From assembly GCF_036711975.1 (NCBI RefSeq), contig NC_091971.1, positions 27,659,501 through 27,723,500 on the forward strand: DNA of 64,000 bases, written 5' to 3'. The stretch is from Onthophagus taurus (lineage: Eukaryota > Arthropoda > Insecta > Coleoptera > Scarabaeidae). The notes below the pieces were generated by a model, which was given only the letters and a program-made list of their open reading frames with translations, was not told the DNA's origin and searched no databases. The translations under genes and the position numbers were made by a program. Below are positions 1-44,471 of the stretch, piece after piece (the first letter of the stretch is position 1; each line of letters opens with the position of its first letter).

Positions 1-188
1 AAACAATGACATTTAAATGTCAGAAATATTTCCGAAAAAAATTGCAAAGCCTACTAAGATTTTAACTAAGATTTTTTTATTAAAAATTCATTGCAACTAT
101 CGATTAACAACCCTACAGCTTAACAGTTAGTGTTTGCTTAATTAATTTTTTTCTCAGAAATTATTAAACGTTCGAAGAACATCAGAGC
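1..188. repeat. Inner part of fold-back repeat arm, left of a retroelement insertion
   Basis: This stretch matches the loop-proximal right arm of the fold-back element at about 33010-33192 almost base for base, including the shared stretch ending cgaagaacatcagag. The remainder of the same arm resumes at about 2268. The copy is therefore a half fold-back element split by the Ty3/gypsy fragment between them. No coding capacity is seen. Confidence 0.75.
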
Positions 189-724
189 TTCCGGGATATC
201 TCCGAAGGTTTGCGCTGGTTCACCTCGATGACGTGATAGTGTACAGCGACTCGTGGGAAGATCATCTCAAACACCTACACCTTGTGTTCGAAAGGCTTCG
301 CTTGCACGGGTTGCGGTTGTCGCCAGAAAAATGTGAACTGGGCGCGACAACCATCGACTACTTGGGTCACCGAATTACGCCAGGCGGAGTTGAGCCCCTG
401 CCAACGCACATCAACGCCCTCTGCAACGCCACGAGCCCGACCAACAAGAAGCAGCTTTGTTCTTTCTTGGGCCTGTGTAACTGGCTCCGCGGTTTTGTGC
501 CTCGTTGTGCCGAGGTGTTGACGCCACTCACCAACCTTTTGCGCGGGCAAAACAAATTTAAATGGAATTCGGACGCAGAAGAAGCCTTCCGTCGGATCAA
601 ACAGCTACTGAATCATCCACTGCAACTGCGACGCCCCAACTTCGACCAACCATTTGTATTGCAAACAGATGCCAGTGGGAAGGGTATTGCTGCGGTACTG
701 TATCAGGATCCCGGAAGAAGATAG
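189..724 (+). pseudogene. pol: Ty3/gypsy Pol: C-terminal reverse transcriptase and start of RNase H
   Basis: The open frame enters upstream of 233 and contains the RT active-site motif HLDDVIVYS, followed by the connection region (DYLGHRI, LGLCNWLRGFV, PLTNLLR). The RNase H start motif FVLQTDASGKGIAAVL is at the end. The palm and fingers upstream of the active site are missing. The frame ends at a frameshift near 715-724, and RNase H continues in the frame that follows. It is part of the polyprotein fragment 189-2072. Confidence 0.85.
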
Positions 725-1735
725 TCGCATTTGCCTGCGCTAAGCTGTCTCCTGCCGAACAACGGTACCACGCCAATGAGCAGGAATGCCTGGCGGTCAT
801 ATGGGCGGTGCGTTACTTCCGTCCTTACTTGGAAGATCGTCGATTCACCTTGCGTACCGACAGTAAGACTCTGTTATGGCTGGACACAATGAAAGATAGG
901 AACGCCAAGCTAACGCGATGGGCACTCCTCCTGCAGGAATTCAAATTTACGGTGGAACACGTTCCGGGAACACAGAACGACATCCCGGACTTCCTCTCAC
1001 GACAGCCAGTTCACGAATCGACTATACCATTGCTTACCGAACAAAAATCGACAGATAGACGAAGCCACCATATTGCGTGCCTAGAAGTACCAGGGTTGGC
1101 CGACGACGTGAAGGAAAGCCAACGCCGATACCCTCATGCCCAGAATCTCATTCAGACCCTGAACACGATCAACCAGGCGGGTCCTGTTAATCCCGGCGAA
1201 GCTAGGATCGTCGACCAATACTCCGTCTACGAGGGATTACTATGGAGACGACATCCAAACGGCAATCGGCTGATTGTACCGCAGGACATGCACGCACAAG
1301 TTCTGCATGCCTACCATGACGCTTCCCTCGCGGGACACCCTGGGGCCGAAGAAACAACGAGGGTCATTCTGAAGAAGTATTGGTGGCTCGGGCTGGAAGA
1401 GCAAGTGAAAGATCTCGTCCGAAGTTGCTGGACTTGCGCTTCCCTTAAACGAGACCCTCTGCAGGAACGGGCCCCGTTGCGGCCCAGGACACCAACCCAG
1501 CCCAGGGAAGTGATCGCCGTCGATCTCATGGGTCCCTATATCAAAACTAGGAACAACAACAGGTTCGTTTTCGTTGTCACTGACCTATTCAGCCGGTGGG
1601 TTGAAGCCTTCCCAGCCACCACCAGCGGCCCCGGAAGATTCGTCGACATCTTGGAGAGCGAGGTGTTTCCGCGGTACGGGTATCCGCGAGCCATCCTGTC
1701 CGAATACGGACCGCAATTCACCTGCATCTCGACTG
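715..1735 (+). pseudogene. pol: Ty3/gypsy Pol: RNase H remainder, integrase zinc finger and core
   Basis: This frame carries the rest of RNase H (LSPAEQRYHANEQECLAVIW, then LRTDSKTLLW and VPGTQNDIPDFLSR). An HHCC integrase zinc finger follows (AYHDASLAGH ... CWTCASLKR). The first integrase catalytic aspartate is in AVDLMGPY. At the second catalytic position the usual S-D-N-G has become S-E-Y-G, which would abolish DDE chemistry. A frameshift near 1735 moves the integrase C-terminal half into another frame. Clearly degenerate. Confidence 0.85.
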
Positions 1736-2072
1736 GGACTCCGCCTTGCGCCGTTGGGGTTGCCTACATTGGACCACCCGCATTTACCATCCCCAAACCA
1801 ACCCAACTGAGAGGCGAATCCAGGAGATAAAAAAATGCGTCCGGATACAGCTGGGAGGGCGAAACCCGACAACATGGGATCGTCACATTAACCGGGCTTT
1901 ATTTAACATTCGCTCAAGGCGTCATGCGGCCACCAAAGAAACTCCTGCCGCTTTGCTGCTAGGCTACGAGTTGCTACGTCCAGGGGAATGGTTGGTAGAA
2001 GCACCCGGCATAAACCAACAACCAGAACTCGAGCGCCCCAGAGAAGAAGACAAATCAGGCAGGCTCACATGA
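1736..2072 (+). pseudogene. Ty3/gypsy integrase C-terminal fragment
   Basis: A short open frame continues the integrase (IYHPQTNPTERRIQEIK, the region of the third catalytic residue, then ALFNIRSRRHAATKETPAALLLGYEL). The motif YHPQTN...ER retains the catalytic glutamate. The protein ends in a short hydrophilic tail with no GPY/F module. It is separated from the preceding integrase core by a frameshift. Confidence 0.8.
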
Positions 2073-2267
2073 TCGGACTCAGCGCTGATTGGACCCCCGC
2101 ACTTCGACCAATCAAAACGCTGGAAATTTCCACTGACTTAGTATTTAAGGGGGTGAAATTGCCAGCTGCCGGCAGTTACCACCTACGTTCTATTATAAGC
2201 TGTATTATTGTAAATAAACAGTTTAAAGCCACATTGCGTTTTATACACCCACTACCCCATCGTAACA
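2073..2267 (+). repeat. Probable 3' LTR remnant of the Ty3/gypsy fragment
   Basis: The stretch after the pol stop contains tatttaag at about 2143 as a possible TATA-like element and taaataaac at about 2211 as a poly(A)-like signal. It ends in taaca directly before fold-back sequence resumes. The layout suits an LTR, but no 5' partner exists in the window for comparison. Confidence 0.4.
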
Positions 2268-2500
2268 ATTGGCTTGAAAAAAGCTTTAGAATAGTTTTAT
2301 CTATCTAACTGAAATTTTTCCCTGTATTTATCATCTTCATAAAAGAAATCTAGGCATAAATTGAACGGGGATGGTTAAGTTTAGGAATATAGAAGGGAAT
2401 GTTGAAAGAACAAATAAGCTAGCAACGTGCTCCCTATTATGAGCTAAACTTATTCCCCAAATTTCATTTTCCTGGTGTATACAGCCTGTTTCAGAGTAAT
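2268..2500. repeat. Outer part of fold-back repeat arm, right of the retroelement insertion
   Basis: This stretch is closely similar to 17466-17690 and 33195-33410. Shared landmarks are the ttgaacggggatggtta segment and cccaaatttcattttcc. It continues the arm begun at 1-188. The arm ends near 2490 and is followed by sequence unrelated to the other two copies. Confidence 0.75.
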
Positions 2501-3534
2501 CGCCTTATTTTTTTTTAGCCACACTATGGGTGATACTTTCAAAATATTTGGCAGGTATATGTTTTAGGACATTCTCTACATGATGTTGATACCTGATTTT
2601 CAATTGGACGAATTATTTCAAAATGGCGACCTTCAACTTTTTTTTTTAATTCGCGACGGTAATGAAAGCTCTAACAGTATCCGATGTTGTAATGAGATTT
2701 TAGTAACATTTTATGGAACCAGTTCAAGTTGATGACATTGGGTCATTAATTTTTCTAATTAATACAATTGTCAATGTGACAATTTTTGTCTGTGGCTGTT
2801 TAAACACGTTCTTAGTATCGAATACAAGATCCACAATGATGAGGACATTGAACACTGAACAATTTCTCTTATTTTGGGAGCTCTACATGAAACATTTTTT
2901 CAGGTGAATACATTTTGTGTTTTGACAGTTTCTAATTGTCAATTCTATTTTCAAGTGTTACGTCGTTACCAACTGCTGCATACCTATTTCCCTACATTGT
3001 CAAAATTTATTTTATTTTTGTTAAAAAAAAAGGATAAAAACGCAATTTACAAAAAATAGGATAAAAAACACGTTTCATAAAACTTAAAGCACTCATTCAT
3101 TAAAAAACTCATGGCTTCGCCACTCGTTTTTCAACTTAAATTCGTGCATTTCAAACGTATTTTACGAAACTTGTTTTTTAATACACTATTTTATTATTGA
3201 GACTCTAAAAACATTCTTTTTACGATAGTATTTCGTTTTTCTTAAAAATTTATTTGTTTTCCCATTAAAAAGCAACTAACATTTTAATCTAGTAGCGCAT
3301 GAATGTTTTACTCGATGTTATTTTTGTAGCCGTTGACACAAAAGAAACAATTAAACTTTATTTTGTAATAAACATCTACTTTTTGAAACTTAAAATTAAA
3401 AATTTACATCAAATAAAAATTAGGTATTTACAAAAAATGGTCGAAATGTTTTCCTTCTTTTTCAATACATAAATTGAAACGTCGTTCAATGGATTCAATA
3501 GACTGACAGCATTGGTTGAACTTTTGAAGAACTA
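2501..3534. other. Non-coding AT-rich stretch
   Basis: No supportable gene is present. Several T-rich homopolymers and short open frames at 2713-3059 have no recognisable domain and biased composition, so I treat them as chance. The block at 3095-3190 with a cgcactcgtttttcaac-like segment looks like dispersed repeat sequence, but I cannot classify it. Confidence 0.5.
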
Positions 3535-3768
3535 TCTACCGTCCTCACACAAATTGAGGCGGTATTAAATTCTCGACCGCTATCACCAATTCCTTCCGAT
3601 CCCAATTATTTACAACCGCTTACCCCGGCGCACTTTCTGGTTTTAGGCCCCTTGAATGAGACCGTTCCAGATCCAGATCTTACATCAATACCTTTGAATA
3701 GATTGGATAGGTGGCAGCTACTGCACAAAATGTGTAAGGATTTTTGGTGTCGTTGGAAGAGCGAATAA
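3535..3768 (+). pseudogene. BEL/Pao integrase C-terminal fragment
   Basis: An open frame of about 77 codons contains LTQIEAVLNSRPLSPIPSDP, then LTPAHFLVLGPL and LDRWQLLHKMCKDFWCRW, ending at a stop at 3766. This order is the hallmark of the region after the BEL/Pao integrase core. It has no start codon and no upstream integrase, so it is a short isolated fragment. The family assignment is strong even though the piece is small. Confidence 0.8.
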
Positions 3769-5600
3769 TCCGAACAAAACATAGACGATTGCAGCGCCCC
3801 GTTGTTAAACTATGTCCGTTACCGATCAACCGATAACATAGATCGTTAACAAATTTATTTTGTATTGTATTTTCGAAATTTATTATGAATGCTCACTTGT
3901 TAATATTGATTTTTTATTGTTATATTTATTTCTGCGTTCTTTACATTTGTTAATCAATTAAAAAAAAAACTTTTTTTTGGGGTGGAGAATGTTTAGGCAA
4001 CCCATATAACAACTTTTGTAACTATGACAATTTATTGATTTCATTCAGTTATTTTTAATAAACAGTAGCCATTTTCTGTTCGTTAACTAAAACAAAGTGT
4101 TTTCTTCTCGATCCACTGCAGAACCCAATTTGCAGAACAATTCAAGTAAGAATTTTCCTATTTCTTTTTTGAACCATCACCCACATATATTCCCAACATT
4201 TGTCGCGCGAACAGTAGACATGGCTCAATTAAGGTACAATTAGAATTCGCGACCTTTGTGAAATCGGAGACGGTGCGAGATGAGGGTGGTGAGGATGTTG
4301 ATAATCGCTAGGCGATCAAATTAAATAATAATCACTTCCCAAACTATTTCGCACACAAGTGATAAATCCTCCAAATAAGGAAAATGGCAATTTCCAACCA
4401 AATAATTTTAAAATTACCAAAATGGCTATCACCAAAAATTTCCGAAGCTCACAGGTGTGGCACGTATCAAAGCTGGTTTTAAAGAGAGCAAGAATCGTCT
4501 CTGAAGACTTGTAAAAATACTCTCGTTGTACAAAAAAAAAATGAACGTGCGCATAAACAAAATTTGAATTAGAGAAATAAAAAGAAAATAGGAAACAGAA
4601 TTGAAATTAGAAATAAGAGGAATATAAAAATGGAAAATTAAGGAAGTTCTAGAAGTACGCTGCTAAAAAAAATACAAACAAATAAATGTATTAATAAACA
4701 ATAAAAATAAATAAACATATTACGTTACGCGTATTATGCAACCCAAAATCTTCCTTTTTTGACAACACAAAACAAATTTACACCAAAACAATACATTAAA
4801 GACATTAGTATTAAAAAGTAATGTAATTAACGGTTTTATTAATTTACTTAATAATGACATAACTTATAGGCATCCCTGTTCTTACTTTCCATATATCTAC
4901 GTTGTGAAATTATATACTAGAATGAAACTGTTTTATACTCTAAAATATATTAATAGGTATTTTAAAGACACAAACAACAAAAAATTAATTATATGGAGAC
5001 ATCAATAAAAAAATTCTTCCTATAGGATAATTGTATGACTTTTATTTTACTTTTTTACTTTACTTTCTTTTCTAATATACAATATTTATATTAAATTTCT
5101 ATCACCCATAGTTTTATATTATTTTATTTTAATAAAACTGTTATAAAATCGTTATTTCTTTTATTTTATTTATAATCACTGTTAATTATTTGTTTTTACA
5201 TATTATGAACTTTAAGAAACTAATGTATGCAACACAAATTGCAGGTAATTATTAAATTTATTCATATTTATACTTTATATAAATTTGTTACAGTATTTTG
5301 TACATGATTATTATGTTTTAAACTTTTTATTTAAAACTATTTAAAACGTTTTGAAACTGTTTTATGCAATTGGTCTTAAACAATTATGCATTAATACAGC
5401 CCTGACATCAAACTTTACCGAATCCACCCCTGCTTATTAGTCCAACGCCACATAGACAAGGTTACGTTAGCTGTACTTAAAAAGATCTAAGCTACCGCCT
5501 GAGAGATGATATTCTGATTGTTGGATATTCTGTGTCCACGGTCTATTGATCATTCCATTAGAAACCTCTGTGTGAGATGTACATCGCGCGCCATTGATCG
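3769..5600. other. Long AT-rich region without a gene
   Basis: Roughly 1.8 kb of AT-rich DNA with homopolymer and short microsatellite runs and no open frame carrying a recognisable domain. A short pyrimidine-rich to mixed segment at 4090-4330 has slightly higher GC content but no coding signal. I see no RNA gene, TIR pair or tandem array here. Confidence 0.5.
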
Positions 5601-5611
5601 TGTCTGATGAA

Positions 5612-5732
5612 ATGTTAATTGAATGTGTTCGGGAATACGACATATTGTATAATCTACGTAATAAGTATTACCATGATAACAACCAAAAGGAAAATGCTTG
5701 GGCAGATGTATCTAGAAAGATGGATTGTTCTG
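5612..5732 (+). pseudogene. First exon of a MADF (Myb/SANT-like) protein, probably a PIF/Harbinger accessory gene
   Basis: The exon starts at an ATG at 5612 and reads MLIECVREYDILYNLRNKYY, then ENAWADVSRKMDCS. This is the N-terminal half of a MADF DNA-binding domain. It ends exactly at a GTAAGT donor at 5733. PIF/Harbinger transposons encode such a protein beside their transposase, and a Harbinger transposase C-terminus lies 50 bp away on the other strand. No second exon is found, so the gene is truncated. Confidence 0.6.
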
Positions 5733-5781
5733 GTAAGTAAAAATGTATTTACTCAAGTAAATTCAAATAACAAAATATAAT

Positions 5782-6110
5782 TTACGGTTGATTGTTCCTT
5801 CCTGCATAAATTCGTTGTAGTTGCCACGGCACGCTTCCTTGATTTGACACAAAGTATTCTTTAAATTGGTCTCTGATATTCAATGCATATTTCTGAAAGT
5901 TTCCTCCTGTGTTTGCTAACCTAGTAACACCTCCGAGCATTACTTCCTGTTCTAATTCGCCTGGCTGCCAAGTACAAGAATCATTACGCAAATAATTATG
6001 CAGAGCAGTGCAAGCTAAAGTAATTTTGTCGAGATGGTCAAGAAAATTCGAAGCTTTTTAGTTATTATACCAAAAGCATTCTCGCTAACCGGTCTGGCTC
6101 TACTATCCTC
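5782..6110 (-). pseudogene. PIF/Harbinger transposase C-terminal fragment
   Basis: The minus-strand frame ends with ALHNYLRND (its start at 5991 lies mid-domain), then TWQPGELEQEVMLGGVTRLA and VPWQLQRIYAGRN. ALHNYL with a preceding RARPVSENAFGI-type motif (in another frame near 6080-6110) is characteristic of the end of the Harbinger DDE domain. One frameshift separates the two blocks. The catalytic core upstream is absent. Together with the MADF exon at 5612-5732 it marks a deleted Harbinger element. Confidence 0.75.
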
Positions 6111-6120
6111 TTAATGACCA

Positions 6121-6138
6121 CCGTTCCTAATTAGGAAC
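6121..6138. repeat. 18-bp perfect palindrome
   Basis: The sequence cgttcctaattaggaacg is its own reverse complement. It lies between the Harbinger remnant and the start of the Ty3/gypsy pol fragment and may mark an element end. No function can be assigned. Confidence 0.4.
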
Positions 6139-6267
6139 GTTCCGAATTTAGCTTGTTGTGACAGTTATGCAAACTGAATTTTGCATATTGCAATTGATAG
6201 ACCGTTGTTCTTATTCAGGAACATTTATATGTTCGAAGAATTTGATCGTTAGTACCATCTATCTGAG

Positions 6268-8559
6268 ATGCATATAACTACAAATTATAACCTCTATAGT
6301 GCAACAGTGCCAGACAGATTTGTGGACTTTGGTGGTAATTTTTATATATTAGCGGTAAGTATATTACAAAAATATGGGAACGTGGACGCGTTGAGTCGTA
6401 ATAATATAATTTCCTTAATTCGAAAACCTGAAAAGGAAAGTTGTAAAATTAATGAGAGGGAAGGAGATCTATTTAATGCGCCAACAGGATGGGTATTTGC
6501 GCATTGTGTGTCTGCGGATTTGGAAATGGGAGCGGGTATAGCTAAGGAATTTAAGGATAGGTTTGGCCATGTGGAAGAGTTAAGACGCCAAAATAAAGGG
6601 GTCGGCGAGGTGGTATCGCTATGTGCGGAAAATAGAAAGATTTATTACTTAATAACTAAGGACCATTACTATAACAAACCCACGTATTATACCCTGAGGC
6701 AGTGTCTGGAAGCGCTACGAGATAAGATGACCGAATCGGGAGAAAAATACTTAGCAATTCCAAAAATTGGATGCGGCCTCGACAAACTAAATTGGGATCA
6801 AGTCAAAGAGGAATTGATTGATAATTTCAACGGCTCGCTTATCATCATAGTCGCATACTATTTACCATATAAAAAGAAACAAAATATCTGTAACGTACAA
6901 GAAGAAATAGCAACCCCAGTTTGGGACAAAACTACCCTTTTGACAGATCAAGATAGAGATGAATTTTGTTTACAAATAAGAACGTCTCTCTCTCTGAATA
7001 GTGGACTCGAGGATAGTTACTTTTTGGATAGTGATGGAATTTTATACAAAATTAATGAATCAGGTAGAGAAGTATTAGTAATACCAAAATCTCTGATAAA
7101 GAAAGCCATTCACGATTATCATGACGTACCCTTTGCTGGTCACGGAGGACGTGTAAAAACGCTAGCGCTACTGAAAGATAGAGTTTATTGGCCCTCAATA
7201 ATTCGAGACGTCAAAAGCTATTATGCGAATTGTGAATCGTGTAATAGGCGAAAAACTTCTCCGCATTTGTCCAGAGTTCCCCTGCAAAAATTCAATACAG
7301 TTCGAAAACCCTTTGAAAGGACGTCCATGGATGTTGTAGGTCCTTTAACAACGACCCATAAAGGAAATAAATATATACTTACCTTTCAAGATTACTTCAC
7401 TAAGTATTTAGAAGCAATTGCTCTGCCCGATCAGAAGGCTGATACTATTGCGAGGGCTTTTGTGACCCTTATAATAAGTCGACATGGTACTCCGCTCCAG
7501 CTGTTAACTGACCAAGGGTCAAACTTCGTTTCATCACTTATGAGAGAAATTTGCAAAATTTTAATTATCGACAAAATACAAACTACGCCCTACCACCCTC
7601 AATGTAACGGACTTATAGAAAGAAGCCATAGGGTCATGAAGGATACAATGTCTCACTATGTTACAAAAGATCCAGCCGCGTGGGATGAATGGCTACCGTA
7701 CGTGCTACTAGCATATCGGTCTACCGTGCATAGTAGCACGGGATACACTCCTCATTTCTTGCTGTATGGTCGAGACATGGAATTGCCTATAGACGCTTTC
7801 CTTCGACCAACAAATCGCCATTACGATTACGATGAAAATTACGCGACAGAGTTAGTAGCACGAATGAACAGTGTTTACGATATAGTATACGAAAACTTGC
7901 AGCTCGTAGCTTTTAGACAGGCTAAGTATTACAATAAGAAAAGTAAACCTCGAACTTTTAATGTAGGTGACTTGGTATTGTTGAAAGAGGTAGCTATCAA
8001 ACCCGGCTTAAGTAAAAAACTAGCTCAACCTTGGGGAGGTCCCTACCTGATCACCAAAATTAAAGGATCGGCAAATTATGAGATTACTGCAACCAACGGG
8101 AGATACAAATCTATTGTCCACGTGAATAGGTTGAAACCTTCTAGAACAAACGAAGAATTGGCTAGGGAAGAGCGTAAGCTACTGGATGCTAACGTACAAA
8201 GCAGAAGTAGGGATGATAATCCCTGTCACGAGTCAAGGATGCCCATAATTCATTTACCAACACCTAAAGCGATTGCTGGAAATAGTGCCGAGCTGGCAAC
8301 CTCCTACGAAACTCAGATTAATACGCCTTGTCCAGCAGTAGCAAAGCAACCGAAAACCCTAAACTATGATGAACCCAGTACCAGTACGAAAAGTAGTAGT
8401 AGTGAGTGGGAAGGAGATGACGTAACTGGAGAGTTAGAAGAAGTGGTGGATGAATCGTTGGATATACGAGATGAAATAATAGACGATTCGCTAGGTGTAC
8501 TATTAGCGGTGAGGCGAGAAAGAAGGATCATAAAACCTCCATCCAGATACTTGGATTAG
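6268..8559 (+). CDS. pol: Ty3/gypsy Pol C-terminal portion with an embedded TARG1/OARD1-like macrodomain and intact integrase
   Basis: The 763-aa open frame begins near the tail of RNase H (YGNVDALSR at 36-44). The RT and most of RNase H are missing, so the ATG is probably not the native start. Residues about 60-205 form a macrodomain: GDLFNAP at 66-72, MGAGIAKEF at 87-95, YYLITK at 126-131, GCGLDKLNW at 168-176. K131 and D172 occupy the positions of the catalytic Lys/Asp pair of human TARG1. Integrase follows: HHCC finger H285/H292/C322/C325, then the DDE triad D355, D415, E451 (D-x59-D-x35-E), and a WGGPY motif near 589-593. The C-terminal 150 residues are acidic and Ser/Thr-rich. No internal stop is present. 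Upstream truncation means this copy is not autonomous. Confidence 0.88.
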   Translation: MHITTNYNLYSATVPDRFVDFGGNFYILAVSILQKYGNVDALSRNNIISLIRKPEKESCKINEREGDLFNAPTGWVFAHCVSADLEMGAGIAKEFKDRFGHVEELRRQNKGVGEVVSLCAENRKIYYLITKDHYYNKPTYYTLRQCLEALRDKMTESGEKYLAIPKIGCGLDKLNWDQVKEELIDNFNGSLIIIVAYYLPYKKKQNICNVQEEIATPVWDKTTLLTDQDRDEFCLQIRTSLSLNSGLEDSYFLDSDGILYKINESGREVLVIPKSLIKKAIHDYHDVPFAGHGGRVKTLALLKDRVYWPSIIRDVKSYYANCESCNRRKTSPHLSRVPLQKFNTVRKPFERTSMDVVGPLTTTHKGNKYILTFQDYFTKYLEAIALPDQKADTIARAFVTLIISRHGTPLQLLTDQGSNFVSSLMREICKILIIDKIQTTPYHPQCNGLIERSHRVMKDTMSHYVTKDPAAWDEWLPYVLLAYRSTVHSSTGYTPHFLLYGRDMELPIDAFLRPTNRHYDYDENYATELVARMNSVYDIVYENLQLVAFRQAKYYNKKSKPRTFNVGDLVLLKEVAIKPGLSKKLAQPWGGPYLITKIKGSANYEITATNGRYKSIVHVNRLKPSRTNEELAREERKLLDANVQSRSRDDNPCHESRMPIIHLPTPKAIAGNSAELATSYETQINTPCPAVAKQPKTLNYDEPSTSTKSSSSEWEGDDVTGELEEVVDESLDIRDEIIDDSLGVLLAVRRERRIIKPPSRYLD

Positions 8560-8816
8560 AGATATAAAAGAAAAAATAAATAAAATAAGCGAGAAAATTA
8601 ATCATAATAATCTCATTTCTTTACAGGTACTTAAATCCTCTTAGGTACAGGTAGTGGTTAGTATTGTAAACTTGGAATTCCGAGGGTAAAACAAAAATTA
8701 GCTTATTAATCTTATGTATTGCTATCAATAATATTCCAAGTAACGGAGGTATTAGAGTTGTTAAATTAAATGTATCATGTTAGAAGTTAAGGGGGGGAAA
8801 GGGAAATTTAGACTGT

Positions 8817-10335
8817 TTGTATGTTACAGGTTACCTCATTGTGTGTTTTTTCATTGGATTCCATGTGCGTATGGGTTTAGCTATTATTGCGTATGACTGT
8901 GATGGCCCTACAGCAAATATTACCAGAATATCCCTTAGGAACGTGGCCGATTGTTCAATTATAGATTCGGCATATATGGAACAGGTTATTAATGTACAAG
9001 TCATTCAGAGAGCACATATTCATCGTCAGAGAGTGTACGGGTGTCTAGTAGAAATAACTAGACAAATTACGCACTGTGGTATGCATAGCCATTCCTCCGA
9101 GGTACGGGGGGGGTTGTTAACGTATATTTACTCCCTGGGAGCAGACCAGTGTCTTAAAGTCCACAAATATGGCATTATTAATTTGATGGGTACCCACATG
9201 TTAAGCAAATTAGAGCCAAACTCGTCAACAACTGTTCATATTTGGGTGGGTACTGTATCGATGCATTATATGGAGAGGTAGCTTGGGAACCGACCCCAAC
9301 AACAGACTGTCGAGCTCAATTAATAACTTTATACGAAGGAAAAGCTAGTTATGTAGAAATACGGGGTACAGAAGATAAGCTTGTGGTTGTCGAAAACCAA
9401 GATCGAGTATTTGCACTCGCTTTAGTAAAAATAGCTTATACTTGCAACGGGGAAGCTTGGTTAACAGAACATCCGAGGATCTTTGTTCACAATGTGAGCA
9501 AGATGGGTAGCATAGAATCCACACGAGGAAATATCGCTGAAAATGTTGATCTGACCGCCTACATAAACAGCAAATTTTTGTATGTCGAGCAAGCGTATAA
9601 GAGATCGATGCAGAAATTCTACTTGGACACCGTGTTGCGACGCTGCCTGTTTAAACGGGAAGTGCTAAAGAATAGATTGCTACTGGCTCCCCTGTCTCCG
9701 AATACTGTCAGTTCGCTAGTGAAAAATGAATTGGGATACATAGGTCGGGCTATTGGAGAAGTATTATATGTGCTAAAATGCATCCCGAAAAATGTTCAAT
9801 TGAGAAGAACCAATACTTGTTACCATGAGCTACCGGTAGTCGATGCAGCTAACAACTCGTACTTCATGTCGCCTTTAACTCATGTACTACAAGAGTATGC
9901 AGAAGAGGTTGACTGTAACCCTATCACTCCGCCTGTATATCAGCTTGAAGCCTCATGGATAGCATTAACTCCTTACCCTGTGCCACAATCATCGATAAAT
10001 CACAAATGAAGTTCAGCCCCGTAATGAATTTGGGAGCTGCTGGTATTTACAACCCGGACGATGCAAGAAAAGCCCAAGAAATTTTACATGGGAATATGGA
10101 AAGGTCAGCTATCAATAATATACTTAACAGAAAACTACAAGGGAAGAAAACAGAAAATCAAGGAATAGATGCGAGTCAAATATTCGATGCGGAAGAGATG
10201 CGCAAATTCGCAAAGAGTACCCTATCATATGTGTGGGGATGGTTCACGGAAATTGGAATGGCCGTTAGTGGGGTCATAGGATTACTGGTTCTGTTCCGTC
10301 TAGTAAAAGGTTTGGCTAGTGTAGTAGCACACTAG
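8817..10335 (+). pseudogene. env: Frameshifted env-like glycoprotein gene of the chuvirus-related type
   Basis: The gene lies 257 bp downstream of pol. Three overlapping open frames (8817-9281, 9242-10009, 9955-10335) make one glycoprotein broken by two frameshifts, near 9245-9280 and 9960-10005. The first frame begins with a hydrophobic signal-like segment (YLIVCFFIGF) followed by a Cys-rich ectodomain with HCGMHSHSS. The last ends with a membrane anchor (MAVSGVIGLLVLFRLV) and a short tail. Cysteine spacing and the CGM-SH motif resemble glycoproteins shared by chuviruses and certain insect LTR retroelements. A splice-acceptor-like tgttacag lies at about 8822-8829, fitting a spliced env message. 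The family call is by recognition only. Confidence 0.7.
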
Positions 10336-10892
10336 CCATGGTTATGCCATCTACAAGACCATGGGATGTGGAGTCGTTATTTTGGCGAGTTTCTGGAACA
10401 ATCTAACAATGTGGCTGCTCAACAAGCAAAGCAGAGCTGAGACTACCACACAAACTATGCCAGGTTCTCCAACAAAATCCACAACCGAGGCAGAGACGAG
10501 CGAGAGCACCTCCTGTCCACAAATATACCCGAAGCTACCTACAGCCCCCAGCTGGATGGGGACCGGATCCTCGCAATGAAGGCGGTCCTGCGCTCTAGCC
10601 ACTGATCCGATAGTTGTAGCAGTGGACCTGAGTCGGGGTGAGTGTAATTACGCGATGATGGTTAACGATAAGTGCGGGAGTGATACCTAAAAATTCGATC
10701 AGTGCTGTAACAGACCGTAAATTCATGTGTAATGAACAAAGAAAAAAAATCTGACTGGTACATGGAAACAGTTAAAGGTGAATTGTGTGTACTAAGATTA
10801 TCTTGTTCTGTAGTAGGTTAAGCAAAGTGTGGTGCGGTTTGTTATTAATGGTTTCATACAAATAAGGCTAACAGTGGTAGCCTTCTTTCAAT
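10336..10892 (+). other. Region between env and the polypurine tract
   Basis: No gene with a recognisable domain is present. A 72-codon frame at 10361-10579 and its antisense counterpart are short, compositionally odd and not supported. The segment is best read as the 3' untranslated part of the env-bearing element. Confidence 0.45.
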
Positions 10893-10905
10893 AAGGTGGG
10901 AGGGA
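10893..10905 (+). promoter_or_regulatory. Polypurine tract of the env-bearing Ty3/gypsy element
   Basis: The run aaggtgggaggga sits directly before TGTAACA. This is the arrangement expected of the plus-strand primer next to a 3' LTR starting with TG. The position, about 560 bp after env, is also as expected. Confidence 0.6.
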
Positions 10906-11776
10906 TGTAACAAACCGCATCCCACCTGTTAGACGTAAGGAATTTTTATGTAGAATTTGTAGATGTTTAGATGTTTTAGATGCTTTAGATGTTTATCGCG
11001 AATCTAGGGTTCGAGTTTTTCTTCTTGCCGCCCAGTAGCAGAGAGTGTAGAAACCTATGGCGTTGGCCCACGGTACAGGGTAAAATTTGTTTGGTTTGAT
11101 ATCGCTGAGTTTTGTTTCGTGCGTAGACTACACAAAGCTCAGCGTTCTTGGGCCGTGGGAGCCATCGCGTGGGGTGATAAGAGCGCTGGGTAGGATAGAG
11201 AGACAGGAGGGAAAGACGGGAGCCGCGGGAGTCGACTGAAAAAACGGAGAGAGTTTTTCGAACGGGCGTTGAGTAAAGTGAGAAAATTTGGAGAAAGTAA
11301 TTATTTTGTTTTCAATTTATATTTTTTTGTTTCGGTTTCTGTGTTTTTGTAGTACAAATAAAATTGTGTCTTAAGGAATTATAGCGGAGTGTGAAACGTG
11401 GACGTTAGGAATGGCTAGAATAGATTGTAAGTAACTTTAAGATTATCGCGCAGTTAATTGAGTAAATCGTTTTGAAAAGTATTGTTCATTTTTAATACAA
11501 AAATGCATTAGTTATTGTTCCCTATTTTTTTTTTGTAACAAATTTAAAAGTTAGTTTCTAGTATAAGTATTTAAAATAATTCTCCGTTGTTTTATTGCTT
11601 TACCTGTTTTCAGAGTCATCCATATACTGCTGTTCGTTTTTAAGCGAGCGCGATAGCAGAGTGCACGACCTCGCCTGGTAAACGGCACGAGCCGCTCCGT
11701 GCCCTTTACAACAGTTCGGAGAGTTCAGAAAAAACCACGTTGACGTTATACACCATTGCTTACAAATAACCCTTAA
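10906..11776 (+). repeat. Probable 3' LTR of the env-bearing element
   Basis: The segment starts TGTAACAAACC immediately after the polypurine tract. It contains an AATAAA signal at 11357-11362 and several promoter-like GC-richer blocks. The right boundary is uncertain because there is no 5' LTR in the window. Candidates are the CA after ccctttacaa near 11713, or the Kolobok insertion site at 11773. The Kolobok-type transposon follows directly. Confidence 0.5.
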
Positions 11777-11930
11777 GGGGACTGGAGGGTCAGATTTTCG
11801 ATTTTTTTTTATTTATTTTTTTTAAAGAACCAACATTTATTTGTATAAATAAAAACAAAAAACATTAAAATTCTGAAAAATGTGAAAGTTATACCCAATA
11901 TTACATAGCAACGCATTAAAACAAAATACA

Positions 11931-11972
11931 CGTCCGCGGCGCGGCCGGCGGCGCCGCGACAGCGCATGCGCG
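11931..11972 (+). promoter_or_regulatory. CpG-dense segment with an NRF1/EWG-type palindrome upstream of the transposase
   Basis: A GC-rich island of about 40 bp (cgcggcgcggccggcggcg-like) stands out in AT-rich surroundings. It ends in GCGCATGCGC at 11962-11971, the known consensus for NRF1, called erect wing in insects. It lies 100 bp before the transposase ATG, so it may be the element's promoter core. Function is inferred from position only. Confidence 0.45.
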
Positions 11973-12071
11973 TTTGACTTGTCTAACGTCAAACGTCATT
12001 TTTAAATGTCGGCATATGTTCTGACTCGGAATTGTTAACCCCGTTAACGCGTTATTTTATCAATAAACATA

Positions 12072-13802
12072 ATGAGTAGTGTATGTATCGACGGAAAAAA
12101 TCGTGGAAAACGACCGCGCAAACGTAAATTTTACGGTAACCAGTATACGTCTACAAAAGACGATTTACAACTTCCTGCCGTATCTATATCGACGTCGTCA
12201 AAAAAAGTAAGTGCATCTGCTGATATTTCTACGAAAGTAAATTCAAGTATCGATTATGAAGTAATAAACTTTATTACTGTGTTTTCTGCAATTGCATCTT
12301 TTGTAAAATGCAAAGATTGTGATGGAGAAGTAAACTTTACCAAACATGCTAAAAATGGACTTGATTTTAAAATTAAAATTTCATGCGATACTTGTAATGA
12401 TAGATTTGTTCCTTCAAGTCCCATAAAAACCGTTTATTCAAATGTAACTTACGAAATTAATACAAGATTTATTGTCGTTATGAGATATTTGGGAATTGGG
12501 TATAGTGGAGTAAAAATATTTTGCAGTCTCATGGATTTATGTGTACCAGCGTGTCGTAGTACATACAACACAATTATTAAAAAAATTCGAAATGCTGCAT
12601 CTGCTATTGCAACCGTCTCAATGAATACTACAGTAAGAGAAGAAATTGAATGTTCGGAACACAAAAATAGTTTAGTTGTATCTGGAGATGGTTCATGGCG
12701 TAAACGTGGATTTCAATCATTACACGGCATTGCATCGCTTATCGGAAATTATACTGGTAAAGTACTTGATGTCGTTGTGAAATCATCTTATTGTGCTGCC
12801 TGCAAAATTTGGGAACATCGGTGTGGAACATCAGAATATTTAGAATGGTTAAATATACACGAAGAAGAATGTAATGCTAATCACGAAGGCAATGCTGGTA
12901 AAATGGAAGCTGATGCAATTATTGAGATGTTTGAGAGCTCTGAATCAAAGTATGACGTTAAATATAAATATTATATTGGTGACGGTGATTCGAAAACCTT
13001 TAAAACCATTCTTACTAAGAAACCATATGGTGCGGAATTTGAAATATATAAGCGAGAGTGCGTAGGCCATGTACAAAAAAGAATGGGTACTCGACTCCGT
13101 TCAATTAAAAAAGAGAAGAAACTTGGCGGCGTAGGAAAGTTGACGGACAATCTTATAGGTGAACTAACTAAATATTATGGTAAAGCGATAAGAGCCAATA
13201 GTGATAGCGTTGAAAAAATGAAAAACTCGATTTGGGCAACATATTACCACAAATGTTCCACTGATGATCATCCGCAACATGAGTTTTGCCCTGTCGGACC
13301 TGAGTCATGGTGTTCATGGCGGAAAGCGGAAGCCGAAGGTAAATTGGAAACATATATACACAAGCCTGCAATTCGTTGTAATGTACAGCGTGAAATTTTT
13401 CCCATTTATGAAGCTCTTTCCGACGATACACTACTACAAAGATGTCTTGGTGGATATTCTCAAAATGCAAATGAGAGTTTCAATAATAAAGTGTGGAAAA
13501 TAGCGCCTAAAACTTCATTCAGTGGAACGGAAACTATTGAAATTGCAGCTTTTTTGGCAACAGCGGTATTTAATGATGGCTGTCATGCATTATTGGCATT
13601 ATTTGAAAAACTAAATATCAGTTATGGAAACCGAACTGTACTCGCTTGCCAAGAGGAAGACAACCGTCGTCTTCATGACTCGGACATTTCCGTGCAAAGG
13701 CGTTCGAAACAAAGCCGTATAAAGAAAATTCGGGATCTACAGAAAAAAGCTGACGAGGATGTAGGTCCGGAAAGCTGTTTTTACCTTCCAGGAAATTTCT
13801 AA
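12072..13802 (+). CDS. Kolobok/Mutator-like-domain DDE transposase
   Basis: An intact 576-aa ORF with a basic N-terminus (KRPRKRK at 13-19). Two CxxC pairs (C80/C83 and C105/C108) probably bind zinc. The DDE core follows: VSGDGSWRKRG with D206, YIGDGDSKTF with D304/D306, and YSQNANESFNN with E468. A CAACKIWEH cysteine/histidine cluster lies at about 241-249 between the first two acidic residues. This layout matches the 'Mutator-like transposase' domain found in many arthropod proteins. TTAA duplications and TIRs around it support a Kolobok-type cut-and-paste enzyme. No stop or frameshift is seen. The ATG at 12072 is the first in frame and lies 100 bp after the CpG-rich block. Confidence 0.85.
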   Translation: MSSVCIDGKNRGKRPRKRKFYGNQYTSTKDDLQLPAVSISTSSKKVSASADISTKVNSSIDYEVINFITVFSAIASFVKCKDCDGEVNFTKHAKNGLDFKIKISCDTCNDRFVPSSPIKTVYSNVTYEINTRFIVVMRYLGIGYSGVKIFCSLMDLCVPACRSTYNTIIKKIRNAASAIATVSMNTTVREEIECSEHKNSLVVSGDGSWRKRGFQSLHGIASLIGNYTGKVLDVVVKSSYCAACKIWEHRCGTSEYLEWLNIHEEECNANHEGNAGKMEADAIIEMFESSESKYDVKYKYYIGDGDSKTFKTILTKKPYGAEFEIYKRECVGHVQKRMGTRLRSIKKEKKLGGVGKLTDNLIGELTKYYGKAIRANSDSVEKMKNSIWATYYHKCSTDDHPQHEFCPVGPESWCSWRKAEAEGKLETYIHKPAIRCNVQREIFPIYEALSDDTLLQRCLGGYSQNANESFNNKVWKIAPKTSFSGTETIEIAAFLATAVFNDGCHALLALFEKLNISYGNRTVLACQEEDNRRLHDSDISVQRRSKQSRIKKIRDLQKKADEDVGPESCFYLPGNF

Positions 13803-14394
13803 GTCGTGTAAGAATAATTATTTGAACGCAAACTACATTTAAACTTTAAACGCGTTTTTCTCGATTTTTTTTTCAACTTTTTGCAGTGATTTATCCGAAA
13901 CTAAGCTTCGTATCGATTAGATATTTTACAACAACAATATTTGTTCATCTGGCTCTCAGATGAATCACGGACAACTCGTTGAAAATATTTTATTTCGAGA
14001 TATTAATTCTTTTTACTGCAAAAAGACTGAAAAATTTAAATTTTTTCTTAATAATTGCTATTTTGTTAATTTTATTCGATTCTTTTTTATAGTGGTTCAC
14101 CGGATAATGATAAGGCTCCTCAAGATTTCTAGCCAATATTCGCTCCGATCGAACCACCGAGAGCCGAGATATTACTGTAAAAACGACATCTTGAATGAAA
14201 AAAAAAGAGTTTGTTTCAGTTATGTTTCTCGTATATTTGTATGAGTATTTGTTAATAGACAATATTTTTCTACTCTTCATATGTTGCATAAATATACCTA
14301 AAATTTTCACTCTTGCATGTTTAATCAGTTCGTCAAAAAATATTATTAAAAACAAGCACGATTTTTTAGCAATCTGACTCTCCAGTCCCCTTAA

Positions 14395-15142
14395 AGTACT
14401 TGTTATTATACTCAATTATTGTAATAAAAAGTTTCTATAATCAAGTTGTTTACATATACAACATTAGTATTTTGTACAGTTTAGATATAAACACAATAGA
14501 TGGCGACACATGTGTTTGAGGCTATGTTCAGAATATTAAATAACCGTTAAAATAATAAGAAGTAAAATAAACATGGTTGCATAAGTTGTTATTAATAGTT
14601 ACCGCTAAACATTATTCATTCTCATAGTTTATTTCTTAATATATCGTTAATGCTAGTTGTGTGTTACTTTAAAAATTTAAAACCATACCCGAACACACAA
14701 GAGGCTCAAAATAAAAACTATAACAAATTTCGCTATCATCATTCACGCAAAATAAGTCGTGTAGCGACTAATGAAGATATTATACAAATGCTTTTATGCT
14801 TTTATTGTCATCAGACCCTGTTATTTCAAATTTAAGAAAACTGCCACCTAAAAAGTAGTAGAATTACATATAGACGTACAAGAACTGCTTCAAGAATAAA
14901 AACTATTCATTCCTTACTTTTTATTCTTGAAGCAATTCTTGTGCGCCTGCATGTTAAATTGAAAGTTTATAATATTTACTTATCTAATTAATTAATTATT
15001 GTTTCCATGTCTTTTATTTTAAGTTATTCTTATTATTTTATATAACTTATGTTGAGTTTGTAATTTCTTCTGTTATGTTCAAAGAACAATAAAGGTTATT
15101 ATTATTACTATTATTATTCTTATTATTATCAATATTATATAA
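14395..15142. other. Non-coding stretch between Kolobok and the hAT MITE
   Basis: No gene is supported. The stretch contains one strong hairpin (described separately) and a TTATTA-type simple repeat run at about 15090-15130. The 61-codon frame at 14650 has no domain. Confidence 0.5.
14878..14942. repeat. Hairpin with 25-bp arms and 15-nt loop
   Basis: The left arm 14878-14902 (acaagaactgcttcaagaat...) pairs with 14918-14942 with one mismatch in 25. The loop is 15 nt. It could be a tiny MITE or a pre-miRNA-like hairpin. Nothing in the sequence decides between them. Confidence 0.6.
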
Positions 15143-15930
15143 TAGTGATGTAAAAAAAGTAACAATTCGTTATACGAGTACTCGTTACTCCGCGAGATCC
15201 GAAGTAACTGTTACCGTATCACATCGGTACCAGTTACTTTGGATCTAACAGTAACTTTTTCCAAAGGCCAAGTATTGTTGGATAGGCGAAATCGACTTAA
15301 AAGTCGAAATGCGCAACAGAATTTATTTTTACATTGCAATAATAAGCTGTAATATCTTTTATTGTTGTTTTAATATTTTTATTTTATTTTATTATTGCTT
15401 GTTTTATAGAAGAAGTTTTGTTTTCCATTGTTAATGTGTTACTACTTTCAAATATTTTTGTTATACAGGGTCATCCACGACGACCGTCCATTAGAACTTT
15501 ACAGGGTTCTGGCCAAAATACAAATTTGAAAATTCAGATTCAAAGATCAGAGAGCTGATTTTTCTAGAAAAATTCGAATAACTCGAGAACTGCCGAAGAA
15601 AAATTCTTCGTTATAATATGCAGTGAAAAAGTAAATCCCATAACCTACACTCTATTTTTTGATATTAGTGCACAGTGCATAATAGCGTAACAAACACAAT
15701 ATAATATACGTACAGTATTTGTTTTCAAAAATAAGTGTAATATAAAATAAATTCATATAAGTATGTAGTCCAACTAAAACGAGTAATCGAACCTCGAGCG
15801 CAAACTAGTACTGGAACCTCAAGCGCAAACGATTACTTGTAACGAGTAACGAGTACAAAGTAACGAATACTTTTTCTGAAAGTAACGGATAGTTACAAAT
15901 ACTAAAAAGTAACTAAACTTTACATCACTA
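15143..15930. mobile_element. Non-autonomous hAT element (MITE) with perfect TIRs and 8-bp target duplication
   Basis: The ends are TAGTGATGTAAA and its exact inverted complement. The flanks TTATATAA at 15135-15142 and 15931-15938 are identical 8-bp duplications, which is diagnostic for hAT. Subterminal parts are rich in gtaacGAGTAACg-like repeats in both orientations. The interior has no transposase. It contains an acagggtcatccacg block near 15466 that looks like another element's end. Confidence 0.85.
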
Positions 15931-15951
15931 TTATATAACTGAACAAAGTAT

Positions 15952-16262
15952 ACAGGATGTTTCGGTGACTCGGAAAACAAATTAACCACATATACTAGAG
16001 TGAAAATAGTGACAATTCATGTAAAAAAAATTAGTAAAAGTCAAATTGCAAAGATACAGGCCAACAAAGTTAGGAAATTTTAACACATTTTTCTAAATAT
16101 CTTAAACACTATTTTAGATAAAGCGTTGAAATTTGCTCATTCTTAGAGAATATTGATTGATAAAAAACCCTTTTCGTATTGAATGCAAAAATTTTGGGCT
16201 CCGAATTCAATAGTAACAGTAAATTTTTATCAATATAAATTTATTCCCCGAGTCACCGAAAC
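15952..16262. mobile_element. Short palindromic-end MITE
   Basis: The left end acaggatgtttcggtgactcgg and right end ccgagtcaccgaaacac are inverted complements across about 14-17 bp. The interior is AT-rich and non-coding. The right end abuts the target duplication of the 6.1-kb hAT element, so that element inserted into or next to this MITE. Confidence 0.6.
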
Positions 16263-43715: not shown

Positions 43716-44205
43716 ATGGATAAACCAGGTCCTAGTAGACATTCCGACCAAGATCCTGATTATATTTTAGAGGATAGTAATGATTCAACTGATGATGAAT
43801 CAATGTCAGATGATGATTTCCTGGAAATAGAACCCAGAAATGATACTATTAGGATGAATCTCGAAGCAAATGTTTTGAGGAAAAACTGAATCCGACGAAG
43901 TCACATAATGTGATGAAATTGTTTTACGTACAAATGAGACAATGAATAATATAAGAGAAAAATTACCGGTGACAACCAATAAATCAAATTATAGAGATAC
44001 GAATTCTACTGAGATCAAAGCGCTGCTTGGACTCCTTATGTTGTCGTCAATTATGAAATCCTCACATGAGGATATGTTATCCCTATTTTCCAAAGATTAT
44101 TTGGGACGTCCCATTTTTAGAACGACAATGTCTGTTAAAAGGTTTGAAATTTTACTAACTAGCCTTATTTTTGATAACAGCGTAGATCGGGAAGAACGAA
44201 AGAAT
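43716..44205 (+). pseudogene. piggyBac-like transposase N-terminal remnant
   Basis: The ATG at 43716 opens MDKPGPSRHSDQDPDYILED, an acidic start with stops near 43888. The frame at 43942 continues EIKALLGLLMLSSIMKSSHE, then DYLGRPIFRTTMSVKRFEIL and LIFDNSVDREERK, the N-terminal helical part of the DDE_Tnp_1_7 domain. Coding ends where the 9-bp satellite starts. It is a different family from the element at 37719-39942. Confidence 0.75.
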
Positions 44206-44471
44206 TTTTTTATTTATTTTATTTATTTTATTTATTTTATTTATTTTATTTATTTTATTTATTTTATTTATTTTATTTATTTTATTTATTTTATTTATTT
44301 TATTTATTTTATTTATTTTATTTATTTTATTTATTTTATTTATTTTATTTATTTTATTTATTTTATTTATTTTATTTATTTTATTTATTTTATTTATTTT
44401 ATTTATTTTATTTATTTTATTTATTTTATTTATTTTATTTATTTTATTTATTTATTTTATTTATTTATTTA
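44206..44471. repeat. 9-bp satellite (TTTATTTAT)n, about 29 units
   Basis: About 265 bp of near-perfect TTTATTTAT units. When read in frame they give an endless Phe-Ile-Tyr repeat, so the apparent ORF through it is not real. It separates a piggyBac remnant from the truncated end of a BEL element. Confidence 0.95.

Follow-up and report, generated by a model that had tools for sequence, protein, structure and literature searches.

The human enzyme TARG1 (also OARD1 or C6orf130), a free-standing macrodomain protein of the ALC1-like class, is described as removing ADP-ribose from Asp/Glu residues, from thymidine and from DNA end phosphates, and its K84A variant, in the accounts available, does not rescue DarT toxicity (PMC8501950, PMC7050489). 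DarG is a macrodomain antitoxin of the same class that belongs to a bacterial toxin-antitoxin pair. It reverses DNA ADP-ribosylation (PMC8501950) and is described in part of a second account as lacking the Lys/acid dyad, of which it keeps only the Lys (PMC7050489). The nsP3 macrodomains of alphaviruses share the overall fold and serve in the viral erasing or reading of ADP-ribose.

Additional enzymes within the polyproteins of retroelements have a precedent in the dUTPase of non-primate lentiviruses and betaretroviruses, which occupies two alternative places in Gag-Pol, one of them between RNase H and integrase (PMC4531489, in part). Bovine immunodeficiency virus carries a catalytically dead dUTPase relic (PMC4261571), comparable to the decayed macrodomains described below. 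The capture of viral glycoproteins is likewise documented: Anakin, a BEL/Pao element of mosquitoes, acquired a chuvirus-type glycoprotein as its env. Protease (PR), reverse transcriptase (RT), RNase H, integrase and the glycoprotein are given for this element, and the only 'macro' string in the accessible text belongs to the title of a reference on macrorestriction (PMC7642597).

No published description of a macrodomain in the Pol of an LTR retroelement, or of decayed relatives of one, was found in the literature searched, in agreement with the original prediction, whose author knew of no retroelement family with this layout. Here, a TARG1-class macrodomain in the Pol of Ty3/gypsy-type elements of the beetle Onthophagus taurus is described.

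A Macrodomain in a Truncated Pol Gene

The window, that is the whole stretch of 64,000 nucleotides analysed (NC_091971.1, positions 27,659,501 to 27,723,500), contains an uninterrupted 763-codon frame, as had been claimed from the sequence (Table 1). Within it, Pfam places Macro, Integrase_H2C2, rve and Integrase_p58_C in this order, the first with a score of 28.6 bits (cut-off 22).

Table 1. Features of the retroelement copy in the window (positions are those of the window)
Feature	Position	Strand	Evidence or remark
763-codon ORF without stop	6268–8559	+	non-Pol leader, RNase H tail, macrodomain, integrase
RNase H region, C-terminal tail, 24 residues	6367–6438	+	71% identical to family A
TARG1/OARD1-type macrodomain	6448–6858	+	Pfam PF01661; PDB 4j5r E 2.8e-32; structure model and Foldseek
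Lys codon (TARG1 Lys84 equivalent; ORF residue 131)	6658–6660	+	
Asp codon (TARG1 residue 125 equivalent; ORF residue 172)	6781–6783	+	
Integrase zinc-binding domain, PF17921	7081–7260	+	Pfam
Integrase catalytic core, rve PF00665	7306–7599	+	Pfam
Integrase C-terminal domain, Integrase_p58_C	8038–8139	+	Pfam
Env piece 1, Monjiviricetes (chuvirus-type) fusion glycoprotein PF24664	8817–9281	+	ORF list, Pfam
Env piece 2, other frame, broken gene	9242–10009	+	ORF list, Pfam
Env piece 3, other frame, broken gene	9955–10335	+	ORF list, Pfam
Last recognisable element piece	10839–10920	+	84% alike over 83 alignment columns to family A (L058 9062–9140)

The copy in the window is a 5'-truncated relic. 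Recognisable Pol begins with the RNase H tail; PR, RT and RNase H proper are absent, the RT-RNase H stretch of family A was not found beyond the last ~24 residues, and no flanking LTRs were found. The env gene is broken, being spread over three overlapping frames. At the 3' end, the last recognisable piece corresponds to the family A region directly upstream of the 3' LTR. A duplicate of this copy, 98.6–99.4% identical, lies ~44 kb away; it contains a piggyBac-type insertion, and its macrodomain has a small deletion.

Fold and Catalytic Residues

By sequence comparison and by the structure model, the window encodes a complete TARG1/OARD1-type macrodomain. The cut-out 6439–6891 matches human TARG1/C6orf130 with an E-value of 2.8e-32 at 45% identity. 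The AlphaFold2 model has a mean pLDDT of 93.5, and its top Foldseek match is TARG1 (E 2.6e-17, rmsd 0.9, 45% identity). The assignment to a TARG1-class domain within a Ty3/gypsy-type Pol, made originally from the letters alone, is thus borne out by fold and by the integrase domains in the same frame. The next-best Foldseek matches are DarG macrodomains (E 1.6e-10, 23% identity), and the alphavirus nsP3 macrodomains among the 50 matches listed are 11–17% identical to the window domain.

The likeness to TARG1 extends to the GxGLD motif and to the catalytic pair. The Lys and Asp singled out in the original prediction correspond, in a gap-free alignment, to Lys84 and residue 125 of TARG1 (numbering taken from PMC8501950 and PMC7050489), and are 41 residues apart in both proteins. 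In an alignment of the window domain with 71 of the 120 matches listed, both columns are invariant. Outside the decayed lineages, the Lys is present in 10/10 rows from the same genome and in 26/27 database rows, and the Asp in 9/10 and in 25/26, counting those database rows that have a residue at this position; these 37 element rows include several copies of one family. The exceptions are one family D copy, with Asn in place of Asp, and P0032, with Arg and Glu as the pair. The TARG1 catalytic pair is therefore nearly invariant in the non-decayed lineages. Unlike in TARG1, the loop glycine G31 is replaced by Ser in family B, in P0003 and in most of the P0015 lineage.

Related Elements in the Genome and in Databases

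The same genome holds 72 matches, many of them in frames of 1200–1692 codons. The order RNase H-macrodomain-integrase is found in families A, B and D, which upholds the predicted position between RNase H and integrase and shows it in further copies, although the window copy itself retains just the end of RNase H. The same order occurs in 18 of the 21 database clusters of a second lineage, the P0015 lineage, and the other three lack one flank. In family C the macrodomain is situated between protease and RT, and in P0003 it occupies this same second junction. The retroviral dUTPase thus offers a parallel in layout only, since its fold and chemistry are unrelated, and the second place differs: protease-RT for the macrodomain, gag-pro for the betaretroviral dUTPase, as far as the source goes (PMC4531489). 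A TARG1-type macrodomain is also present in P0036, an alphavirus-like polyprotein of 2029 aa, while no relatives were found in IMG/VR with the window macrodomain and P0015 as queries.

The Ty3/gypsy order PR-RT-RNase H-integrase was found in family A, assembled by pieces, in family C, also by pieces and with a protease match below the Pfam cut-off, and, as far as their sequence was read, in families B and D. The Pol matches are to the Pfam families PF17917, PF17919, PF17921 and Integrase_p58_C. Direct repeats that form LTR pairs flank copies of A (300 nt) and B (295 nt), both clipped by the locus edges, and are 100% and 99% identical, respectively, over the part seen. The 10-kb loci of C, F and F2 contain no such repeat pair, and that of D has only a 94-nt repeat. 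For 17 of the 22 family A matches the listed frame length is 1692 codons, and one of the 17 has a stop within the match. Some family A copies carry frameshifts, which distort codon-variant counts downstream of the macrodomain, and those counts were set aside. The near-identical LTR pairs and the long family A frames suggest that A and B were recently active with the domain kept.

Env types were assigned for individually read copies. The chuvirus-type env (PF24664) is matched in the window, B and C, and the family A env resembles that of the window by tblastn. Baculovirus-F-type env (PF12259), the type carried by errantiviruses, was seen only in F and F2 among the copies read, and in none of the window, A, B and C. 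In family H, a 601-base piece searched for an env has neither a Pfam match nor a match to the F env. The protease-RT site, the chuvirus-type env, the decayed relatives and the truncation of the window copy were all absent from the original prediction.

Decayed Macrodomains in Errantivirus-Like Lineages

The errantivirus-like lineages F, F2, G and H have a decayed macrodomain in the gap between RNase H and integrase. In family F, for example, the layout is RT-RNase H-(decayed macrodomain)-integrase, and the env is of the Baculo_F type in contrast to the chuvirus-type env of the window element. Both loop glycines are lost in all four lineages, and the Lys is also lost in F and H; nevertheless, the regions are situated in long frames. 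Not all relatives, then, depend on hydrolysis. The expected conservation of catalytic residues across copies therefore holds for the families nearest to the window, but not for these sister lineages.

Origin and Divergence

The macrodomain trees lack resolution in their backbone and do not place the origin of the domain. A pairing of host TARG1 with P0003 (support 91/93) in one tree was not recovered in another. In AU tests, four groupings absent from the best tree were not rejected: window/A/B/B2/D as one clade (p 0.254), the same five with P0005 and four of the P0015 lineage (p 0.153), the same five with C and P0003 (p 0.071), and window/A/B/B2 with the probable host TARG1 (p 0.115). The last of these is the grouping that bears on the proposed capture of a host gene.

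The macrodomains of the window and family A are 68% identical over 137 residues (dN 0.21, dS not computable), compared with 77% for integrase. The macrodomain thus diverges faster than integrase, which counts against a role as an eraser. By one method, dS was computable for 8 of 15 macrodomain pairs, and dN/dS in these is 0.18–0.50.

Possible Functions of the Macrodomain

The favoured reading, to which a probability of roughly 55% can be given, is that Ty3/gypsy-type elements of one lineage, with virus-type env genes, carry an extra Pol module, a TARG1-class mono-ADP-ribosylhydrolase, which would erase host ADP-ribose marks from the nucleic acids or proteins of the element. Whereas TARG1 acts as a separate protein, this domain would be produced as part of Pol and would enter the particle together with RT and integrase. 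During reverse transcription and integration it may strip ADP-ribose set by PARP-type enzymes of the host from element nucleic-acid ends or from element proteins, probably by the Lys/Asp mechanism of TARG1, to judge from fold and residues. Activity, packaging, target and benefit are all inferred here. The Ser at G31 in several lineages, the Asn of one family D copy and the Arg/Glu of P0032 speak against an eraser, as do the long frames of F, F2, G and H without the loop glycines.

Chromodomains are thought to steer or tether the integration of chromoviruses. On this model, the macrodomain might be a reader that binds ADP-ribose at DNA breaks or in chromatin and guides or anchors the integration complex, an option that seems clearly less probable than erasing. 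Its position next to integrase in A, B, D and most P0015-lineage clusters would suit such a role, as would the long frames of the four lineages without loop or catalytic residues. For the macrodomain of an alphavirus in mosquitoes, the accessible text puts the binding of ADP-ribose above its hydrolysis, and the replication of mutants in mosquito cells was normal (PMC12632316), which favours a reader or a weak role. On the other hand, a near-invariant Lys and Asp would be superfluous for a pure reader, and the family C macrodomain is far from integrase.

Slightly less probable still is counter-defence in trans. Here, the domain would be released from Pol and would act in the cytoplasm, taking ADP-ribose off proteins of the host or of the element like the macrodomains of alphaviruses and coronaviruses, and its place in Pol would merely secure expression. 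RNA-virus macrodomains are described as countering PARPs (PMC7232374, in part). The two different positions in Pol suit a free-acting cargo, and the macrodomain of P0036 points the same way. However, the Pol products of retroelements are usually few and packaged, and a PARP-based antiviral response in the host has to be presumed.

It is improbable that the domain, captured long ago, is now only a structural connector whose chemistry is irrelevant and which provides a folded spacer linking RNase H to integrase. The region does persist in F, F2, G and H although its sites are altered or dead, and the dUTPase relic of bovine immunodeficiency virus is described as needed though without dUTPase activity (PMC4261571, in part). 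A mere connector would leave unexplained why Lys and Asp are conserved in A, B, C, D, P0003 and the P0015 lineage, as well as family C, in which only 84 residues separate RNase H from integrase.

Finally, a chance fusion or assembly artefact in a single copy, which the truncation of the window copy and the 66% identity of the next full-length matches beyond the duplicate might suggest, is rejected in view of the 72 genome matches, the long frames, the families that share the layout and the 21 further database clusters, and a domesticated host gene is unsupported, the near-identical second copy being a segmental duplicate.

Implications for Retroelement Biology

A wider and more tentative proposal, which falls somewhat short of even odds, is that an ADP-ribosylhydrolase was an ancestral Pol module of a large env-bearing branch of Ty3/gypsy elements that includes the errantiviruses. 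The RNase H-integrase connector of errantiviruses would then be a decayed pseudo-enzyme descendant, acting as a reader or scaffold, while relatives with a chuvirus-type env and the second lineage would still erase host ADP-ribosylation. This offers a concrete identity for the connector of errantivirus-like elements. If the proposal is true, ADP-ribosylation has been a long-standing check on retroelements; the decayed versions in related elements suggest that hosts may long have held such elements in check by ADP-ribose tagging.

The enzyme class is unreported for LTR retroelements in the literature searched, and occurs here with its catalytic residues in copies that look recently active. The series of active, altered and dead versions in one genome amounts to a natural experiment on the purpose of the domain, and the finding as a whole allows a test of whether ADP-ribosylation keeps reverse-transcribing elements of animals in check.

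A TARG1-type macrodomain ahead of the integrase

The Pol frame of the window element runs for 763 codons with no stop, and its Pfam matches are, in order, Macro (residues 81-181), Integrase_H2C2, rve and Integrase_p58_C. In a search of PDB sequences, five solved human TARG1/C6orf130 sequences are the best matches of the piece 6439-6891 (E about 3e-32); the matches that follow, to DarG-type and further bacterial macrodomains, reach at best E 2e-4. The predicted structure (AlphaFold2; window sequence plus 71 database proteins) has a mean pLDDT of 93.5 and a pTM of 0.87. In Foldseek, the top eight ranks for this model are TARG1 chains (best E 2.6e-17, TM 0.90/0.97, rmsd 0.9), with DarG second to TARG1 (E 1.6e-10). 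An alignment without gaps places Lys131 and Asp172 of the ORF at TARG1 Lys84 and residue 125, with a spacing of 41 residues in both proteins. The acid is printed as Glu125 in an excerpt of a review (PMC7050489); the TARG1 PDB sequence has Asp at that position, within GCGLD.

Outside the decayed lineages discussed below, the Lys is retained in 10/10 own-genome and 26/27 database rows (Arg in P0032), and the Asp in 9/10 own-genome rows (Asn in one family D copy) and in 25/26 of those database rows that have a residue at this position (Glu in P0032); these rows include several copies per family and are not independent counts. Between the window and family A, dN is 0.21 for the macrodomain and 0.14 for the integrase, with dS not computable, while macrodomain dN/dS is 0.18-0.50 in the 8 of 15 pairs with computable dS. 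As judged from these substitutions, the macrodomain is under constraint, weaker than that on the integrase.

The window copy

The sole match to a 500-residue RT-RNase H query from family A near the window frame covers residues 474-497, and RT and RNase H proper are therefore absent from this copy. A fusion glycoprotein lies 3' of the Pol frame, broken across three overlapping frames (Pfam, ORFs), and no direct repeat of at least 60 nt was found in window 1-16000. A stretch comprising the element and its 5' flank is present twice, as a segmental duplication whose larger aligned blocks are 98.6-99.4% identical (L037, L064), the two macrodomains being about 44 kb apart. An insertion carrying a piggyBac-type transposase splits the duplicate, whose macrodomain also has a small deletion. 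We read the window copy as a single old, dead insertion, later duplicated, in which the Macro-IN frame is still open. The window is transposon-rich.

Features, families and database proteins (Macro, macrodomain; PR, protease; RT, reverse transcriptase; RNH, RNase H; IN, integrase)
Feature	Location	Details
Gypsy-type Pol fragment	562-1830	RNase H-integrase without macrodomain; served as negative control
Duplicated stretch	2501-8806	limits are the start of the compared and end of the fetched stretch
Its other copy (L064)	G000:C6:27614500-27624499	
Pol frame	6268-8559	
Family A RT-RNase H match	6367-6438	
Macrodomain	6448-6858	
Fusion glycoprotein	8817-10335	Monjiviricetes (chuvirus-type)
Resemblance to family A	10839-10920	end immediately 5' of its 3' LTR
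Transposase ORFs	12072-13802, 38549-39382, 43942-44472	Mutator-like and piggyBac-type (DDE_Tnp_1_7)
ORF of 1067 codons	52177-55380	Endonuclease_7 match, weak at 25.3 bits (cut-off 23.6)
Family A		22 matches, 64-66% identity; 17 within frames of 1692 listed codons, 1/17 with internal stop
Family B		six matches at 50-52% and one broken copy
B2, relative of B		51% identity
Family C		ten matches at 47%, frames of 1462-1613 codons; fragments
Family D		three matches at 45-46%; pieces
Remaining matches		window, its duplicate, other fragments, probable host gene, group at 25-31%
Family B env	L059 7703-8941	open piece of 413 codons; profile positions 255-647 of 653 (C-terminal part)
Family C env	L060 8380-9999	open to end of stretch read, 540+ codons
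Damaged second copy of probable host TARG1	L051, G000:C3:27699300-27703300	
F2	L046	L062, L063 stand for F and F2 together
G	L067, L069	
H	L068	
P0014		Macro-IN (Pfam)
P0015		PR-RT-RNH-Macro-IN; 137 member sequences
P0003		PR-Macro, stops at start of an RT (Pfam)
P0005-P0008		PR-Macro; Gag-like match below cut-off in P0007, P0008

Related families in the genome and in databases

A six-frame protein search of the assembly (290.8 Mb, 33 contigs) gave 72 macrodomain matches at E up to 0.001, grouped into families by identity. One copy per family was scanned piecewise with Pfam. The order is RT-RNH-Macro-IN in A and B, RNH-Macro-IN in D, and PR-Macro-RT-RNH-IN in C, where the macrodomain lies between protease and RT. 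The protease of C gives a weak match, scoring 19.8 bits where the cut-off is 28.2, and its integrase finger is represented in the scanned piece by no more than its first 23 positions; the C integrase scores 526.5 bits against a profile built from those of the other families. Separate reads identified the protease of A and the Gag proteins of all three of A, B and C, the family A Gag by its zinc knuckles, with a Retrotrans_gag match below cut-off. Direct repeats are 100% identical over the 300 nt seen in A and 99% over the 295 nt seen in B; none was found for C, F or F2 in 10 kb of sequence each, and the D stretch gave only 94 nt. Two exons make up the probable host TARG1 gene on contig C1 (L057); the damaged second copy on C3 shares its intron gap and contains a frame break.

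The env of these Ty3/gypsy-type elements is a fusion glycoprotein of chuvirus type: its profile is matched by the window, B and C (Pfam, copies read). The N-terminal part of the family B env was found in other frames, and in the family A copy read the env is in broken pieces. The BEL/Pao element Anakin carries a chuvirus glycoprotein (excerpt of PMC7642597), and the relevant passages of PMC10084718 report no clear gypsy capture of one; families B and C therefore bear on this question.

The database search gave 15 proteins with the window frame as query, P0014, P0015, P0003 and P0005-P0008 among them, and 22 with the P0015 macrodomain, namely P0015, 20 other retroelement proteins (P0016-P0035) and an alphavirus-like polyprotein of 2029 aa (P0036) with a TARG1-type macrodomain within it. 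All 21 retroelement proteins, here called the P0015 lineage, were scanned, their macrodomains being located by a profile of the present families and human TARG1. The macrodomain is flanked by RNase H before and integrase after in 18 of the 21; the domain scan found no integrase in P0027 and P0032 and no RNase H in P0035. The Pfam Macro profile places nine of them above cut-off and nine below, with three unlisted.

The domain also occurs in other settings. Aphid proteins P0004 and P0010-P0013 (430-656 aa) have a TARG1-type macrodomain but no retroelement or other Pfam domain above cut-off, and P0001 and P0009 have theirs joined to XPG nuclease and T5orf172/YAcAr (SLOG-type) domains. In P0002 (535 aa) the macrodomain is accompanied by a GDSL lipase and by a PHD finger match that is weak (below cut-off), a combination that we take to resemble LINE ORF1 proteins with an esterase.

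Decayed macrodomains in errantivirus-like elements

Profile comparison indicates that the region joining RNase H to integrase in the errantivirus-like lineages F, F2, G and H is a decayed macrodomain. Family F has six near-full-length copies counting the query, 92-100% alike and one with a stop; H occurs, beyond its listed locus, in two more frames of the genome, of 1298 and 600 codons. Pfam recognises no domain in the gap region of F and G, which spans 198 residues in F as against 84 in C. Aligned by hhalign to a TARG1-type profile built from 71 database proteins, the gap regions score 82.7 (F), 96.7 (F2), 85.0 (G, where the alignment is limited to the last 89 columns) and 56.0 (H), all above the maxima of 18-23 from 100 shuffles per lineage. 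The positive control, family B, scores 321.6. Three further controls stay at 8-11, inside their own shuffle range: two RNase H stretches and the 109-residue gap of the window's second gypsy-type Pol. Both loop glycines are gone in all four lineages; Lys and Asp are retained in F2 and G, the Lys is lost in F, and both are lost in H.

F and F2 look like errantiviruses, since a Baculo_F env lies downstream of them (Pfam, copies read). In the integrase tree, F groups with F2 (100/99) and the window with A (100/99); the window-A pair joins B and D (86/94), and the P0015 lineage is recovered at 100/100. The tree gives no resolved place for C or deeper order and its taxa include no close macrodomain-free relative, so gain and loss are not distinguishable.

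Possible roles of the domain

Excerpts of one paper (PMC8501950) report that TARG1 strips ADP-ribose off Asp/Glu and off thymidine in DNA, that it reverses in vitro the end-phosphate ADP-ribose made by PARP1 or PARP3, and that its K84A mutant does not rescue DarT toxicity. Linear cDNA, with free ends and complexed with integrase, would be a plausible substrate of end-modifying PARPs. Given these activities and this putative substrate, we favour a domain that would act at about the time of reverse transcription and integration, taking ADP-ribose off the element's own cDNA, RNA or proteins. Purely cytoplasmic counter-defence and a chromatin reader are both less favoured than such removal.

The retroviral dUTPase serves as the model for the logic, as an additional enzyme at two alternative Gag-Pol sites, RNase H-integrase among them (excerpt of PMC4531489); one virus keeps a dead yet needed dUTPase relic (excerpt of PMC4261571). 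We found no report joining a macrodomain or OARD1 with retrotransposons in the openly licensed literature, where the combined terms led to a review on prokaryotic defence and another on mono-ADP-ribosylation and where no title of this kind stood among 30 of the 772 papers matching a broader search. Word searches gave no mention of 'macro' or ADP-ribosylation in two insect endogenous retrovirus papers (PMC12992720, PMC13172572) or one on the gypsy-like Troyka lineage (PMC12440569). The domain is described here from the sequences of one genome and of database proteins, and from predicted structure.

For the decayed lineages, reader and scaffold readings gain weight. In mosquitoes, what is selected for in chikungunya virus is proposed to be the binding of ADP-ribose and not its hydrolysis (excerpt of PMC12632316).
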